Virus record (IMG/VR): IMGVR_UViG_3300048919_000068
Span: 1 to 20,962 of that record
Length of the DNA stretch: 20,962 nucleotides
From: a virus
Reading direction: 5' to 3' (one strand)
Part shown: piece after piece, positions 1,685 through 8,535 of the stretch
Position numbering within the stretch: the stretch's first letter is position 1
Layout: each line of letters starts with the position of its first letter
The notes under the pieces: generated by a model
Database searches by the model: none
The model's input: the letters and a program-made list of their open reading frames with translations, nothing else
Told to the model about the DNA's origin: nothing
Program-made: the position numbers and the translations under genes

Positions 1685-2794
1685 CTAATCGATAATTTCG
1701 TATTCGGTAAACTCCAGCTTTCGTCCAGACTCTGATGCTTTGCCTTTCTTTGGTACAGCCTTAACATCAGGCACTTCAACACCATATTCCTTTTTCCACT
1801 CGGCATAAGTCATGCTGCCTGGCACTGTGATGTTCTTACCACTGGCATCCCGAGCGATCCGTACGCCAGGATCATCCTCGAAATAAACGGTTGTTGTTGT
1901 CCGGCAATTAGCATGAAATGGCGGAAAAGTAACACGGACCTCTTTTTCACTCAACAAAAACACCTTACCATCCATACCTTGGCAGATGTTTGATGTTCGC
2001 TTATCAAGCGTGGCTAATATTTGGTACCTTTCGACAACCCCACTAGCTTTGTACCCGTCAAATGTAGCCTCTTGAATGATATGCGCCGTTTCTGTTCGAA
2101 CCAATCGTTCCGCCGCTCTCTTTCCGACTTCCATTCGTGCCGACATAACTCGGGTCATTTGATCGATGCTGTCACCACGGATAATAGCTTGAGATAATGT
2201 GTTGCGTATTTCTCTCACCAACTTGTCCCGGTCATCCCATATACGAGCGCTGTAATTCTTGCCTAACCACGGTTGAGCGATCACTTTTGCCACTGCAGCC
2301 GTATCCACCGCCGCAAACGATACCCCAATGCCCAACCCCTTGTGCACCTCGTATATCGTTCGGTAATAGGTATCTGTGTACACGCCTTGCATTAATACGT
2401 TAGTGCCTGTTTGCTGATTAGCCGCCAATACCTCAATCTGCTGTTGTAACTGGATCAACAAGGCGCTCAGGCGGTCTATGCGTGTCTTAAAGTAAACGTT
2501 GTTCAGTTCCTTCGTCCATGTGCCATCAAGATTACCCTTTGCCATGGCCGTAAACTGTTCCAGAGTCATTCTGAACTCTTTCAGTTCAGCTTTGGTGAGT
2601 AACTTCTTCCCATCAGCAAATGATAACTCGTTATTCTTGGCGAACCGATAGTACCATTCGTTCAGATCCTTGGTCATGGAGCGTATAGCCAGTTCATACT
2701 CCCGACTTACAGCATTGATGTAACCATCCGTTTTATCGTATTGATGTTGAGCTGCTTGCTCAGATCGTTTCTGCCAGTACTTTTGCGGCTTCAT
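1685..2794 (-). CDS. minor head protein (SPP1 gp7 / Mu F family)
   Basis: The 369-residue product matches the minor head protein family of SPP1 gp7 and Mu gpF, which attaches to the portal and takes part in procapsid assembly and DNA ejection. The N-terminal half is helical and charged. The diagnostic region has RTETAHIIQEATFDGYKASG in the middle and the HANCRTT motif near residues 294-300, followed by acidic residues. A TYAEW segment lies near residues 329-333. The protein is longer than SPP1 gp7, mainly through a basic C-terminal tail (about residues 340-369). Its ATG overlaps the portal stop codon by 4 bases, typical of translationally coupled portal/minor head pairs. Confidence 0.9.
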   Translation of the reverse strand: MKPQKYWQKRSEQAAQHQYDKTDGYINAVSREYELAIRSMTKDLNEWYYRFAKNNELSFADGKKLLTKAELKEFRMTLEQFTAMAKGNLDGTWTKELNNVYFKTRIDRLSALLIQLQQQIEVLAANQQTGTNVLMQGVYTDTYYRTIYEVHKGLGIGVSFAAVDTAAVAKVIAQPWLGKNYSARIWDDRDKLVREIRNTLSQAIIRGDSIDQMTRVMSARMEVGKRAAERLVRTETAHIIQEATFDGYKASGVVERYQILATLDKRTSNICQGMDGKVFLLSEKEVRVTFPPFHANCRTTTTVYFEDDPGVRIARDASGKNITVPGSMTYAEWKKEYGVEVPDVKAVPKKGKASESGRKLEFTEYEIID

Positions 2795-4290
2795 TCATCC
2801 TCACCACCGCCATCACCGTTCTGTTGTTGCTGTTCCTGACCAAACGCAAATTGCCTTGAAGCGTCTTCCTCCATGGCTGATTTACGTTCGTTTTCGATTC
2901 TTTCCAATTCTTCTTCTACATCATTAGTCCATGGGTGGTTAGCAACAAGTGTCTCATTCGACAATAAGCCTACACTATCTTTAACATTAGTAATGGCTTC
3001 TGTCTCATTGATAATCATATCCCTATTGAATATGAATGTTACATCGAACTCTGAATAGTCAACCTTCGTTGTGTTATACAAATGTTTATCAACGAACCAC
3101 AGCAATTCTTCTAAACTAGCTTGAAATTCTGTCTCGATTGTGTCAGCGTCCATGTCCAAATCTCCATACAAGAACCTAAGCGCTTTTCCTGATGGATCGT
3201 TCCCTAAATCGTCACTATGATTGTCTACACCCCTACCAAACTCATAAATGGCCTTGCGTAGCCTGTCCATGTGCGTGGTGAATGCTTCTGTGTTGATATC
3301 AAGCGAAATGGTGCTGACTTTACCGCCGTTGGAGACCTTAACGCTTCTGTACTGAGTCATATTACGTCTCATCTCGCCCGGATCGGTACCATCATATCCT
3401 TCCACTACGAATATGCTGTTCGGCAAATCCTCCAAATTATTGGAGTTATCTGAGAAACGGCTATCGTAATCATCCACCAGTGATTTAAGCATTTCCACCA
3501 ACGGCATTTCCTCGTCGTTATACTTGAACGGAATGAACGGTACCTTTTCCCAGTTCATGCCTTCTTCGACTAAGACCTTGACTCCTTTATCATCCAATCC
3601 TGTCTTAACCACCACAAAGTGATTCTCGCGTTCTCCATCTACCAAACGCACCCCTGTCTGAATACCATCATACACAAACCTCATGACACCGTCAGTATCC
3701 CAAAACTCGATGATTGTTACCTCTACCTTTTTGAGCGCTTCGTACCGTTCCTGTTTATAGAAACGAACCATTGCGTACAGTTCGGTATGGGCGTTATCCT
3801 TCCAAAGAGGCACACATTCGGTTGATGGGATGATCTTAAATGACAAGGTTCCTTTCTCATCATGATAAACCTGCATCCACCCTATGCCGTTGTTGATTGA
3901 TTCTTTGCCGATGTTCTTCAGTTGCCGTTGGAATTTCTTTCCGAATACATCATGCAACACGTCTTTGTATGCATCTGGTCCATCAGTTTGAATACTGAAT
4001 GGCTTAGAAAGCAAATAGCCGGTCTTTTGATCAACCAACTTCCGAATGAATCCATGAACCAATTTGTTGTTAGCTAGATTGGTTGCTTCCTGCAACATTC
4101 CACCTTCACCAATCACCATCCGCTTATGGTCGAGTATCTTGGTTTTGTTCTTATAATACGCTTGGCCCAACTTCATCCACTCGTATCTGTCGCTGGACTT
4201 AAACTCATTCATCTGCTGGATTGCGATTTCCTTGTTGGTCATAGGTGCGTTCTCACTGAGATCGCGCAGTATTTCGCCTAATGTACTCAT
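2791..4290 (-). CDS. portal protein (SPP1 Gp6-like)
   Basis: The 499-residue protein is close in length to SPP1 gp6 and follows the large terminase gene. Portals form the dodecameric ring at one capsid vertex through which DNA enters and leaves. Family hallmarks include an N-terminal helical region, a YLLSKPFSIQ segment near residue 92, a GIGWMQVYHDEKG beta-hairpin near residues 136-148, an IIPSTECVPLW segment, and a helical stem/crown part with DNHSDDLGNDPSGKALRF. The C-terminal tail is acidic and glutamine-rich (EQQQQNGDGGGEDE). The start has an AAAGGAGGT site 5 bases upstream, one of the strongest in the window, consistent with high late expression. Confidence 0.93.
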   Translation of the reverse strand: MSTLGEILRDLSENAPMTNKEIAIQQMNEFKSSDRYEWMKLGQAYYKNKTKILDHKRMVIGEGGMLQEATNLANNKLVHGFIRKLVDQKTGYLLSKPFSIQTDGPDAYKDVLHDVFGKKFQRQLKNIGKESINNGIGWMQVYHDEKGTLSFKIIPSTECVPLWKDNAHTELYAMVRFYKQERYEALKKVEVTIIEFWDTDGVMRFVYDGIQTGVRLVDGERENHFVVVKTGLDDKGVKVLVEEGMNWEKVPFIPFKYNDEEMPLVEMLKSLVDDYDSRFSDNSNNLEDLPNSIFVVEGYDGTDPGEMRRNMTQYRSVKVSNGGKVSTISLDINTEAFTTHMDRLRKAIYEFGRGVDNHSDDLGNDPSGKALRFLYGDLDMDADTIETEFQASLEELLWFVDKHLYNTTKVDYSEFDVTFIFNRDMIINETEAITNVKDSVGLLSNETLVANHPWTNDVEEELERIENERKSAMEEDASRQFAFGQEQQQQNGDGGGEDE

Positions 4291-4467: not shown

Positions 4468-5703
4468 CTAGAATTCGAATGTTGCACCTTTTCTGAACCT
4501 CTCAATTCCGTATCGAAGAGCAGCCATTGCATCATCGAAAAAATTAACCGGTTCATCCAAATATGTGTTTGTTTTGGCATCATGTTGCCACTTCCACTGC
4601 TGTATCTCTTTGATCGTGTTGAAACAACTTGGATGGATGTATATCTTGTGCTTCTTGAGAAAGTCAATTTGTGCTCTCACACTGTTTGATTCCTTTATAA
4701 CAGGACGTGCTTTATAACCGGCATTACGCCATGTTTTAATCCTGTCAGGCTCAGCAGAGTCGCAATACATTGGTAGGTGTTTGTTTAGCTTGCCTTCAGC
4801 CAGCTGAATGATTTCTCCTGTATCCTTCTCATGTACATATATCTCACCACAAATATAAATATCCCCATCTTTGTATCCGATGGAGAGTATGGCGTTAGCA
4901 TGGTTGAACCCAAAGTCCTGCCCAATGCTCATATGATCAAAGCGTGAGAATGATGTGTCGAAGTCTTTCACTTCAAAGTTGGATAGAATAGCACCGCCGA
5001 GCTCGCCCCATTCACCTAATCCATATATCCGATAACCGTCCGGATCTCGCATCTTCCTGAGTTGCATCCTGCGGTGATATGCTTCATCAATGAATCGATT
5101 CATCAGGTACGTGCTGTGATTGGTTATAATATCTTCGTGCTCTGTATCAAAGTATTTAGCCTTAATCCAGTGTGTAGCTGATACAGGGTTAAAGGTAAAT
5201 GTCATCTGATAGTACAGATTCGGATTGACCAATATACCACGAAGACGGTCATCCAGGATATCAATGTCCGATTCCTGTAGTTCCGTTGCTTCCTCCACCC
5301 AGATCCACGTTAGCTTACCATGAGCAAAGTTAATGGATTTCAGCTTTTCACGGTCCCTAGCGTCATTAACACCGCGGAAAATGATCTCATTATTCGTTAT
5401 CCTACTTCTTAGCATTAATGGAGACTGCCGAACTTCCCAAAACTCATCAGCCCGATCACCATAAATCCGATTAATTGCTGCCTGTAATTCAGCAAAAGTA
5501 CTATTACGGTTAGTCTCATTAACCTTACGAACACAAAGCATATTGCCACCAGCATACTTTGGATCTGATAATTTAATGATGTAATCTTGTGCAACATTAA
5601 CCGACTTGCCCGAACCGGCAGAACCCTTAAACGCTCTGTAACGTTTGCGCGTCTGGTTCATAACCCTAAAATTACTATTGAATTGGACGGCTACAGAAGT
5701 CAT
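4468..5703 (-). CDS. terminase large subunit
   Basis: The 411-residue protein is the DNA-packaging motor, an ATPase fused to a nuclease that cuts concatemers and drives DNA through the portal. Walker A is GSAGSGKS at residues 27-34. The Walker B region with catalytic acids is WIWVEEATE around 133-141, and the coupling motif TFTFNP is at 168-173. The C-terminal RNase H-like nuclease has D263 in GQDFGFNHA, D315 in YCDSAEP and D390/D391 in NFFDDAMAALRYG. The layout matches the PBSX/SPP1-type Terminase_3 family. The ATG overlaps the end of the small terminase gene by 4 bases, so the two are translated as a coupled pair. Confidence 0.95.
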   Translation of the reverse strand: MTSVAVQFNSNFRVMNQTRKRYRAFKGSAGSGKSVNVAQDYIIKLSDPKYAGGNMLCVRKVNETNRNSTFAELQAAINRIYGDRADEFWEVRQSPLMLRSRITNNEIIFRGVNDARDREKLKSINFAHGKLTWIWVEEATELQESDIDILDDRLRGILVNPNLYYQMTFTFNPVSATHWIKAKYFDTEHEDIITNHSTYLMNRFIDEAYHRRMQLRKMRDPDGYRIYGLGEWGELGGAILSNFEVKDFDTSFSRFDHMSIGQDFGFNHANAILSIGYKDGDIYICGEIYVHEKDTGEIIQLAEGKLNKHLPMYCDSAEPDRIKTWRNAGYKARPVIKESNSVRAQIDFLKKHKIYIHPSCFNTIKEIQQWKWQHDAKTNTYLDEPVNFFDDAMAALRYGIERFRKGATFEF

Positions 5704-6494
5704 GTTGCACCATCTCCATAATCAATAGTAATGGTGATTGGCTCACGTTTACTGTCGCTACCAAGCTTATCAACTTCGCCTTTAAGCTTCTTGATACGTA
5801 ATTCCTGTTCTTCGTCCGCCGAACCTTGACGACACATATCCTCATACTGCTTGATAAGGCTCTGTAACGTGGACATAGCCCGGCTCTGAGCGTTTAGGAA
5901 TGTGGCTTGCCTATCCCAAGCAAACTGGAACTCGTATTCACGTTCAATCGGAATTTGTTCCATCTGCGGCGAATCATCTTCACTGTCACCAGGAACCTGA
6001 GCGATCTCGAACTTTTCTTTCTTCAGTTCCTTGATCATCTCGCCCTTGTCGGTAACATACATAATCTGCTGTGCCCGGATAATAGCCGTGTACTGAATCA
6101 TGATCTGATCCCACAACATATCCAGCGGCGAACGAGACTCAATCTGTTCCATGATCTCAATCGTGTCAGCAGGAAAGTATTTACGGAAGAATCCATGTGT
6201 CACGGCTTTATCATTGCCATAAGGACCACCATTGCCACCCTTGTTTCCCTTAGCATTCTTGTTGCCTTTAGGCGCTCCGTGACCGGCTGCATTGCGATTA
6301 CCCTTCATAGATTCACTTCTTGCACCCTGCGTCTTTTTGGATGCGTCTTTGGGTGCATCGGATGCATCTTTGCTCCAACCCTGCCTCTGTTTGCGGCTTT
6401 TGATGGTCGGATATTTCACATTATGTTTGTTCGATAAATCTTGCAGCGAAATATCAGTAGTCTCATATTCCTCTCTTATTAACGCCCAATCCAT
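5700..6494 (-). CDS. terminase small subunit
   Basis: The 264-residue product recognises the packaging site and hands DNA to the large subunit. The N-terminal 40 residues (DWALIREEYETTDISLQDLS, then NVKYPTIKSRKQRQGW) form a helix-turn-helix of the type seen in PBSX/XtmA-like small terminases. A low-complexity G/N/K-rich linker runs from about residue 63 to 95 (repeated GNKNA-like units), followed by a helical oligomerisation region and an acidic-basic tail. The start is odd: the only good Shine-Dalgarno (GGAGG) lies 15 bases before the ATG, and a different ATG sits at the ideal distance and opens a 7-codon frame (see the leader minicistron). No in-frame alternative start exists upstream because a TGA closes the frame. 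Confidence 0.85.
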   Translation of the reverse strand: MDWALIREEYETTDISLQDLSNKHNVKYPTIKSRKQRQGWSKDASDAPKDASKKTQGARSESMKGNRNAAGHGAPKGNKNAKGNKGGNGGPYGNDKAVTHGFFRKYFPADTIEIMEQIESRSPLDMLWDQIMIQYTAIIRAQQIMYVTDKGEMIKELKKEKFEIAQVPGDSEDDSPQMEQIPIEREYEFQFAWDRQATFLNAQSRAMSTLQSLIKQYEDMCRQGSADEEQELRIKKLKGEVDKLGSDSKREPITITIDYGDGAT

Positions 6495-7153: not shown

Positions 7154-7229
7154 TACTCACTGCTGGACTTGAACCAAGCGTCTGTATCCGTTTATTGGAC
7201 GGTCGCTCTACCTGTTGAGCTAAGTGAGT
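7154..7229 (-). tRNA. tRNA gene with unusual anticodon arm (best fit Ile, anticodon AAT)
   Basis: The acceptor stem ACTCACT/AGTGAGT pairs over all 7 positions. The D arm is canonical (TAGCTC, AACAGGTA loop with GG, GAGC). The T arm carries the TTCAAGT loop, with either a C-C mismatch or one bulged T in its stem. The anticodon stem CCGT/ACGG leaves a 7-base loop CCAATAA, giving anticodon AAT, but position 33 is C rather than the near-universal U, and the outer pair is A-A. The variable region is about 8 bases, longer than usual for this class. CCA is not encoded. The body of the tRNA is convincing; the identity is not. It may be a functional tRNA with an altered loop or a decaying copy. Confidence 0.7.
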
Positions 7230-7234
7230 TCGGT

Positions 7235-7327
7235 CGGCCCATGCAAGAATTGAACTCACACCAATTCGTCTTTACTGGTTGATCAAATCAGCGTTACAGA
7301 TAGATTTAGACCTTCCAAGGATGGGCC
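7235..7327 (-). tRNA. class II-like tRNA gene, possibly Tyr(GTA)
   Basis: Acceptor arms GGCCCAT and ATGGGCC pair perfectly over 7 bases. The T arm has a canonical TTCAATT loop and a 5-bp stem with wobble pairs. A D-like stem TTGG/CTAA closes a short loop containing GG, and a long variable arm (ACCA/TGGT) gives the 93-base length of a class II tRNA. The best anticodon loop is CTGTAAC, which would read as Tyr GTA. However, the anticodon stem has two mismatches, and positions 8-9 are CC instead of the usual T8. It lies 5 bases upstream of the second tRNA gene and shares its transcript. It is either a divergent phage tRNA or a degenerate one. Confidence 0.5.
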
Positions 7328-7611: not shown

Positions 7612-7642
7612 AAAAAAGAGCAACAGCGTTTAACCGTCACTC
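7612..7642 (-). terminator. Rho-independent terminator ending the structured RNA
   Basis: GAGTGACGGT (7633-7642) pairs with GCTGTTGCTC (7618-7627) as a 10-bp stem with several G-U pairs and a 5-base loop, followed by six T (7612-7617) on the minus strand. It sets a 3' end for the transcript that starts near 8140. Confidence 0.8.
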
Positions 7643-7884
7643 TCTTGTATTGCCCCTCACAACCTCAAGCCACGCACTGAGCGTAACCCTCAAGCGGTTA
7701 TGACAAGCTCCAGATCCCTATTACTCCGGACGGTCGACCTGGATTCCGTCACGGAGGCATATTTTCTTTGTCCACATACATGCATGTGTCCGGTATGTGC
7801 CCCGGCAGGCGTATGTGATGCGCTAATGCGCTGTTCACCATAGGAGGGCCGCCTATTACAGCGGCTAAAAAGTTATGTGTTAAA

Positions 7885-7923
7885 GGTCTTGATAGGAATC
7901 GAACCTATCTACTCCAAAAGACC
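7885..7923 (-). other. tRNA-like acceptor/T-arm minihelix inside the structured RNA
   Basis: GGTCTT (7918-7923) pairs with AAGACC (7885-7890). Directly stacked on it, GATAGG and CCTATC close a canonical TTCGATT T-loop (7891-7909). An 8-base bulge replaces the D and anticodon arms. I could not fold a full tRNA around it: the longer acceptor option GGTTTGG at 7963-7969 has one G-A clash and leaves no proper anticodon arm. It could be a tRNA relic or a T-loop module of the RNA. Confidence 0.55.
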
Positions 7924-8144
7924 ATATTATAATAGCGGTGATCTTACCCGCCGACCCCGCTTCCAAACCACCGCGACTAGCGCTCCATTATCCCTGTGTT
8001 CAAAGCGGATACCTTTTAGTGTGGACGAGTCCTGCAATGTTCGGATGAGCAGGGACACCCGGGTAATATACCCTATGTCCCTACTTTAAATCCAAACCAC
8101 AGACCCCGTGCCGACCCACTACAGACGTGGCACAGACGCGAAAA

Positions 8145-8522
8145 TCATTCTATCATTCCAATCAGTTTTAATGTTTCTGCAACGGATTCTACTCCACGAA
8201 CAATTCTCCTGTCAACTGACCGATCTGTAATATTATGAAACTTATTTACAGTTCCCCACCGAGGTAATCCACGAATAAAGCGGTAATGCATTACTTTCTT
8301 CACGCCATCATCCATAATTAAATTTACCGCCATCTCAACCGCATCTGCCTTCTGTTCATACTCCGTTTTCACCTGTTGCTCTTTATCTGTTAGGTTTTGA
8401 CGATTATCCAGGGCTTCAGCAGTTTTCCGCATCCGAATATATCGGTTCAGCATGCTTCTAGCAGACTCATAATCCGACTTTGTGGCTTTAGGAAATAACT
8501 CCATCTGACTGATCGCCCCCAT
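8145..8522 (-). CDS. ArpU-like late transcription regulator
   Basis: The 125-residue protein resembles the ArpU/RinA-type regulators that sit at the end of the early region of Gram-positive phages and switch on the late operon. The N-terminus MGAISQMELFPKATK carries an LFP motif typical of ArpU proteins, followed by a helical, charged middle (residues 15-75). The C-terminal part, HYRFIRGLPRWGTVNKFHNI plus TDRSVDRRIVRG, is a sigma region 4-like HTH (about 78-115). I use the ATG at 8520-8522, 8 bases after AGAGGAG; the GTG at 8531 would touch that site. Residues 6-10, QMELF, match a sliding-clamp-binding pentapeptide. The gene lies directly before the RNA block and late genes, as expected for its role. 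Confidence 0.72.
   Translation of the reverse strand: MGAISQMELFPKATKSDYESARSMLNRYIRMRKTAEALDNRQNLTDKEQQVKTEYEQKADAVEMAVNLIMDDGVKKVMHYRFIRGLPRWGTVNKFHNITDRSVDRRIVRGVESVAETLKLIGMIE
8147..8155 (-). promoter_or_regulatory. candidate extended -10 promoter of the structured RNA
   Basis: TGATAGAAT on the minus strand has a TGn extension plus TAGAAT (5 of 6 to TATAAT) and overlaps the last codons of the ArpU-like gene. Transcription would start near 8140, exactly where coding ends and the structured RNA begins. No clear -35 box is visible, as is usual for extended -10 promoters. Confidence 0.5.
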
Positions 8523-8535
8523 TGTTTGCACTCCT

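Follow-up and report, generated by a model that had tools for sequence, protein, structure and literature searches.

An RNA related to EAR (epsC) as a probable antiterminator in the leader of a phage late operon

In phage lambda, the late promoter of the Q/qut system is followed by a short leader (the pR' leader), a terminator and the late genes, and the antiterminator is a protein. The EAR (epsC) RNA of Bacillales exopolysaccharide and capsule operons is said to have been reported by Irnov and Winkler in 2010. EAR is reported to be a cis-acting processive antiterminator that also acts on foreign terminators and has no known dedicated protein (PMC7858274, PMC11658703, PMC2864571); its processive antitermination is RNA-based (PMC8955417), and it belongs to the exopolysaccharide and capsule operons of Bacillales (PMC2864571). 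A 2022 paper counts two RNA-based systems, put and the EAR found in exopolysaccharide operons (PMC8955417). The put RNA of coliphage HK022 acts as nascent RNA and yields terminator-resistant polymerase without a dedicated protein factor (PMC9378689), and the canT RNA of Tn916 and the conAn2 RNA of pLS20 are antiterminator RNAs located near the start of long operons in Gram-positive mobile elements (PMC11658703, PMC8955417). GOLLD and ROOL are large structured phage RNAs found near tRNAs (PMC12286853). No phage EAR was found in the literature searched, where EAR occurs in exopolysaccharide and capsule operons only; an earlier mention is possible.

The window analyzed here is a 20,962-base IMG/VR virus record, and the RNA stretch lies at 7612-8140 on its minus strand. 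An earlier note on this DNA had described a gene-free structured phage RNA at this place, which was confirmed: on the minus strand 7624-8144 is filled by no ORF of at least 50 amino acids, the ORF of the regulator ends at 8145, and the minimum free energy of the minus-strand RNA of 7612-8140 was -204.4, compared with -174.7 +/- 7.6 in shuffles (z -3.93), a value reached by none of 100 dinucleotide shuffles. Folded alone, 7934-8084 also lay below its shuffles (z -3.2), as did 7612-7933 (Table 1). The regulator was found on one side and, of the tRNAs that had been described, one tRNA-Ile (7154-7229) on the other. Adjoining the tRNA-Ile, the minus strand of 7238-7327 resembles a degenerate tRNA, with a T-arm and an acceptor of 7 bp (GGCCCAU/AUGGGCC), and was called as a tRNA by neither ARAGORN nor Rfam. 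Membership in GOLLD or ROOL, one of two options raised for the RNA, was dropped, since a scan of the window with the whole Rfam library at E <= 10 returned the neighboring tRNA-Ile as the only match above threshold, with a few sub-threshold chance matches, and the GOLLD and ROOL models were negative. The sequence, on inspection, offered no supporting feature for a group I intron, a tmRNA, a permuted tmRNA or a Y RNA, and these candidates were rejected.

Two queries, the protein sequence of the regulator and a piece of the RNA resembling a T-arm, retrieved the first relatives. These included the close relatives L003 and L007 (about 92% identity, with a 297-nt insertion), L002 and L004 (about 94% identity in the 5' half, with an inserted ORF), and a distant relative, L005; a match to the T-arm pattern, L006, was set aside as an unrelated phage contig with a T-arm look-alike only. 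Further relatives of the regulator came from an alignment scan, and their comparison revealed a 5' hairpin that is conserved. This hairpin, written as a degenerate pattern, had matches in 34 viral stretches and in 11 named genomes, all of them Paenibacillus. Covariance model R1, which covers the first 73 nt, was run on genomes of one genus (matches in 18 of 75), of its family (53 of 396) and on a sample from its order (50 of 395); these sets overlap. BLASTN of the window RNA and its relatives against GenBank phages returned nothing useful, the regulator protein had no relatives among GenBank phages, and an alignment-based scan of genome contigs for the regulator confirmed none.

The second option of the earlier note, an unrelated new class, gave way when the relatives were found to grade without a break into EAR/epsC (RF01735). 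Phage copies scored 91, 86, 79, 73, 63, 60 and 53 bits on the RF01735 model (cut-off 42); four copies with phage-type leaders scored 91 (L005), 90 (L128), 80 (L134) and 75 bits (L120), and three further copies from a class-wide search reached 98-118 bits. Among 24 related virus or prophage records, to which L006 was added in the search as an unrelated pattern match, 10 exceeded the cut-off and 18 had E <= 1. The scores fell gradually from compact copies to those with a longer P6 loop and then to those with an enlarged P4/P5 domain, which is the window's type (helices as in Table 1). The window itself gave no epsC match at E <= 10 and lay below the gathering score. Model R2 was built from the full core (P1b, P2 and P3-P6) of compact phage EARs, with the window and its subtype left out, and it located the core in the window (Table 1). 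Model R3, limited to P3-P6, was built from phage copies only to test the window minus its 5' half; it recovered chromosomal eps and capsule EARs at 58-88 bits and gave the window 7.0 bits (E 4.4) at the right place, which is not significant. Given this score and the missing Rfam match, the junction and P6 of the window may have drifted beyond EAR function, and the failure of R3 weakens the claim of the window to RF01735 membership. In the window's subtype P3 nevertheless covaries, and P4 and a P5 with the CUAGU loop are kept as judged by eye; we interpret the window RNA as strongly elaborated and EAR-derived without filing it as an RF01735 member. Its link to EAR draws on the shared 5' half found by R2, on a graded series of intermediates, on the covariation of P3 within its subtype, and on synteny, and EAR ancestry is considered very likely.

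The reading preferred here is that the 5' leader of a late operon contains a relative of EAR (epsC, RF01735) that has been elaborated and adapted to the phage, and that would antiterminate the late genes (probability about 0.75). Granted the EAR ancestry, antitermination of the late genes is almost as likely as the ancestry itself.

Table 1. Features of the leader RNA and its neighborhood in the window, listed from the regulator gene toward the late genes
Feature	Position	Strand	Basis or remark
Late-regulator gene, 128 aa, sigma-region-4-like HTH	8145..8531	minus	PHROG 21810
Four direct repeats GTCTGT/GTCGGC, 11-bp spacing; putative regulator sites	8099..8137	minus	autocorrelation
TAAAGT, conserved TAnAGT -10-like box of putative late promoter	8083..8088	minus	T, A, A, G, T at 98-100% in 61 loci, retrieved with an anchor of which TAnA formed part
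Predicted transcription start, C/A, 7 nt past the -10 box	~8076	minus	C 93% / A 97% in 61 loci
EAR-like core	7934..8084	minus	covariance model R2, 29.9 bits, E 8.4e-6; next best in window 8.5
5' hairpin P1: a 8084-8076, b 8057-8049, inner stem AGGG/CCC	8049..8084	minus	covaries in phage loci
P2: CCUGC 8053-8049 with GCAGG 8035-8031; shares strand b with P1	8031..8053	minus	covariation
P3 (8025-8018/7969-7962), closes three-way junction with P4 and P5	7962..8025	minus	covariation
P4, GUAUCC/GGGAUA	8012-8007/7994-7989	minus	assigned by eye in window
P5, loop CUAGU as in compact members	7983-7981/7975-7973	minus	assigned by eye in window
P6 hairpin, T-loop-like, GGCGG-GUAAGAUCA-CCGC	7935..7952	minus	both-side changes in 4/4 pairs, 97 sequences
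tRNA-like minihelix: 6-bp acceptor GGUCUU/AAGACC and T-arm GAUAGG-UUCGAUU-CCUAUC	7885..7923	minus	34 loci
Structured 3' extension of window subtype	7647..7884	minus	fold of 7612-7933, z -4.0; varies among relatives
Intrinsic terminator 5' of late genes	7612..7646	minus	AAGAGAGUGACGGU-UAAAC-GCUGUUGCUCUUUUUU; strict stem 7642-7618
terS, first large late gene	5700..6494	minus	
terL	4468-5703		after terS
portal	2791-4290		after terL

Covariation in homologues, which had been proposed as a check on the helices, was strong in the core in alignments of 25 and 97 sequences. Seven helices were supported among 25 aligned compact members, with 91% of cells paired, and changes on both sides of a pair numbered 71, compared with 22.8 in shuffles and at most 11 when the partners were slid. 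The corresponding count in 97 sequences aligned to R2, an alignment that is fitted to the structure, was 446, compared with 138 shuffled and at most 54 slid; the shuffles behind these helix figures ignore kinship. P3 covaried both in compact relatives and in the window's long subtype, where it scored 8.64 against 6.99 +/- 0.33, the maximum of 5000 shuffles being 8.1. All five pairs of P2 showed both-side changes in the 97 sequences. Strand b can pair with strand a (P1) or with strand c at 8035-8031 (P2), and each pairing stood above partner shuffling that likewise ignores kinship, b:c with 7.75 against 6.76 +/- 0.14. An upstream partner of b of at least 7 bp was present in 88% of 61 phage loci, a frequency biased upward because the loci were partly found through that pairing, and in 6% of 18 eps-operon EARs. 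Strand a falls within the promoter if transcription begins where predicted.

Because one strand b serves both P1 and P2, either the RNA switches between them or one of the pairings works at the DNA level; the competition for b raises the speculative prospect of an on/off folding step in the leader. A conventional attenuator or riboswitch, in which exclusive P1/P2 pairing would set the formation of a single terminator in response to a signal from phage or host, would make use of the two covarying partners of b and of the terminator downstream. The alternative strands, however, lie hundreds of bases from that terminator and do not overlap it, and strand a, which is missing from the chromosomal EAR relatives, may not be transcribed, so this explanation is judged improbable.

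A promoter of its own had also been proposed for the RNA, and a candidate is indeed present, although the extended -10 first named (TGATAGAAT, 8150-8142, at the stop codon) is shared with the closest relative, L004, and not across the family. The TAnAGT box and the repeats of Table 1 make up the present candidate. Autocorrelation upstream of the RNA in 61 phage loci was raised at lags 11 (0.41) and 22 (0.38), compared with about 0.25 at other lags, and the doubled GTCTGT occurs once in the window, at the 8099-8137 repeats. In the phage loci the 11-bp repeats are located 15-105 nt 5' of the RNA and have different sequences in different subgroups (CGTCTGT, TGACGG/TGGCGG, TGGGGGTAA, GATACTA) at constant spacing, as if the specificity of the regulator had changed repeatedly. 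Within the regulator gene, the minus strand of 8215-8186 carries TTGACA-18-TAGAAT, a near-perfect (11/12) match to a sigma-70 promoter; a similar stretch occurs in L004 and L007 and is absent from more distant members, and, seen in near relatives only, it is probably a chance match and was rejected as a promoter.

Homologues of the regulator matched PHROG 21810 (unknown) in 26 of 26 cases, PHROG 248 ('transcriptional activator') in 10 and SigF in 3. The AlphaFold model of the regulator had a pLDDT of 91.7, and its best PDB matches were sigma factors, none of them significant. The distance from the end of the regulator to the RNA was 34-86 nt in 25 of the 28 distinct regulators near the RNA.

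At the far end of the RNA, the intrinsic terminator described earlier was verified, and a strict terminator was located 3' of the RNA in 35 of 63 loci, compared with a shuffled mean of 0.55; several members (e.g. L103, L105 and L070) have no terminator ahead of the next gene. With the start at about 8076, a transcript ended by the window's terminator would measure about 465 nt (8076-7612). Such a unit, with its own promoter and terminator, large 3' extensions, tRNA-like parts, a tRNA adjacent and a very divergent EAR half in the window, could be a free-standing ornate noncoding RNA in the manner of GOLLD and ROOL, which would start at the late promoter, stop at 7612, accumulate to a high level and function in trans, EAR being merely its origin. 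This is considered unlikely, as the models of those two families are negative, the RNA holds a fixed place at the start of the late operon, the relatives keep the core as EAR, the 5' core is kept while size and 3' part vary freely, and the window has no second such repeat array able to drive terS.

Beyond the core, the earlier note had allowed for tRNA-like parts, and one exists as the T-arm/acceptor minihelix at 7923-7885; it is an optional add-on, present in 34 of the 72 loci examined. A short linker replaces the D and anticodon arms, and the matching acceptor types are GGUCUU, GGCCUU, UGACCUU and UGAUCUU; the partner-shuffle figure for the acceptor is no evidence, since pairing was a selection criterion. 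Within the window's 3' extension, the hairpin AGCCGCUGUAAUAGGCGGC looks like a decayed terminator and has no U tract. Several insertions and additions were observed in relatives. L024 and L007 have tRNA-like pieces with acceptor GATGTGG/CCACATC and a T-arm 200-400 nt past the EAR core, one of these pieces having a tRNA-Leu-like D-arm (no tRNA was called by ARAGORN in L007). An ORF is inserted after the minihelix in L004 (6240-6530), and L012 (5446-7339) contains a truncated 5' copy of the RNA, an inserted gene block and then a complete copy.

The order of parts in Paenibacillus phages and prophages is late regulator, 11-bp repeats, TAnAGT, RNA, usually a terminator, and then recombinase, terminase and portal; the genes found 3' of the RNA in phage loci encode tyrosine recombinase, TerS, TerL, HNH or portal proteins. 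That a tyrosine recombinase gene often comes next, that the T-arm resembles tRNA 3' ends and that the a/b inverted repeat spans the promoter would suit a DNA element, namely a phage attachment, packaging or regulator site whose T-arm was copied from a host tRNA attachment site. The window, however, has no recombinase gene at this place, and the minihelix retains the matching 5' acceptor strand. Nested and branched pairs that covary, the presence of G-U pairs and the match to an Rfam RNA family all point to RNA. An action as DNA is thus very improbable, and the reading of the T-arm as attP is disfavored by the retained 5' acceptor strand and by covariation of the core pairs.

The window's RNA heads a phage late operon and not an exopolysaccharide or capsule operon, whereas the chromosomal relatives inspected in other Bacilli belong mostly to eps/capsule-type operons, as judged from neighboring proteins. 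The TerL of the window (4468-5703) is nearest to those of Clostridioides, Enterococcus and human-gut phages (67-69% identity); the packaging module may be mosaic, its kinship differing from that of the leader, whose relatives point to Paenibacillus. A second prophage on the contig of L010 (L175, 1730-4223) has a second regulator, repeats and an EAR scoring 60 bits on RF01735 directly 5' of contractile-tail-like genes, with no terminator between. EAR may also head tail-like operons (tailocin or defective prophage).

Homology, structure and part order were computed here; promoter use, regulator binding and antitermination are what we infer, as follows. The sigma-region-4-like regulator, encoded just upstream, would bind the 11-bp repeats and turn on the promoter at 8088-8083. 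The RNA would be transcribed first and would fold as P1/P2, the three-way junction P3-P5 and the T-loop hairpin P6, a fold for which covariation was seen in the family and partly in the window's subtype. As is known for EAR, the nascent RNA would then stay with the elongation complex and render the polymerase terminator-resistant, and the polymerase would pass the terminator at 7646-7612 and later ones into terS, terL, portal and the rest. Without the action of the RNA only the short leader of about 465 nt would be made, like the lambda pR' leader. RNA antitermination is the simplest reading in view of the reports on EAR and the order of regulator, promoter, RNA, terminator and late genes, and the RNA probably lets the phage transcribe the whole virion-building operon without an antiterminator protein. 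We lean, with more reserve, toward the broader proposal that the late operons of Paenibacillus phages and of tail-like elements use an EAR-class RNA antiterminator instead of a Q-like protein, with a promoter-coupled 5' switch (P1 versus P2) and a removable tRNA-like module, for example a handle for RNase P/Z processing. If true, EAR would belong to phages no less than to biofilms; the phage family would bear on where EAR came from or went, and its dozens of natural variants could be used to learn how RNA alone makes polymerase terminator-resistant.

The phage RNA has P2, the three-way junction P3-P5, the P6 T-loop hairpin and the conserved UUAUC and ACUCGG segments in common with EAR, as well as a location toward the 5' end of a long operon and, frequently, a hairpin terminator after it, and compact phage copies exceed the Rfam cut-off. 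Unlike EAR, it is located at the 5' end of the late operon, right after a regulator-driven promoter, and not inside eps or capsule operons; it has an extra 5' hairpin on strand b, an optional tRNA-like minihelix and large 3' extensions, and in the window the P4/P5 domain is rewritten and the score falls below the Rfam cut-off. It resembles GOLLD and ROOL as a large structured phage RNA near a tRNA, but its conserved part is the EAR core. By description, its proposed role matches that of canT and conAn2, antiterminator RNAs that Gram-positive mobile elements carry close to the beginning of a long operon, although the kinds of element differ. It is likewise comparable by description to HK022 put as a proposed phage-encoded nascent antiterminator RNA; put is about 70 nt long with two stem-loops and serves early operons in an Escherichia host, whereas the core described here is about 140 nt, has a branched junction and lies in a late operon. 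The order of parts is that of lambda Q/qut, with the regulator gene just upstream, but here the RNA is proposed as the antiterminator and the promoter is the expected target of the regulator. EAR-headed phage late operons would give HK022 put and lambda Q a counterpart in Gram-positive bacteria.
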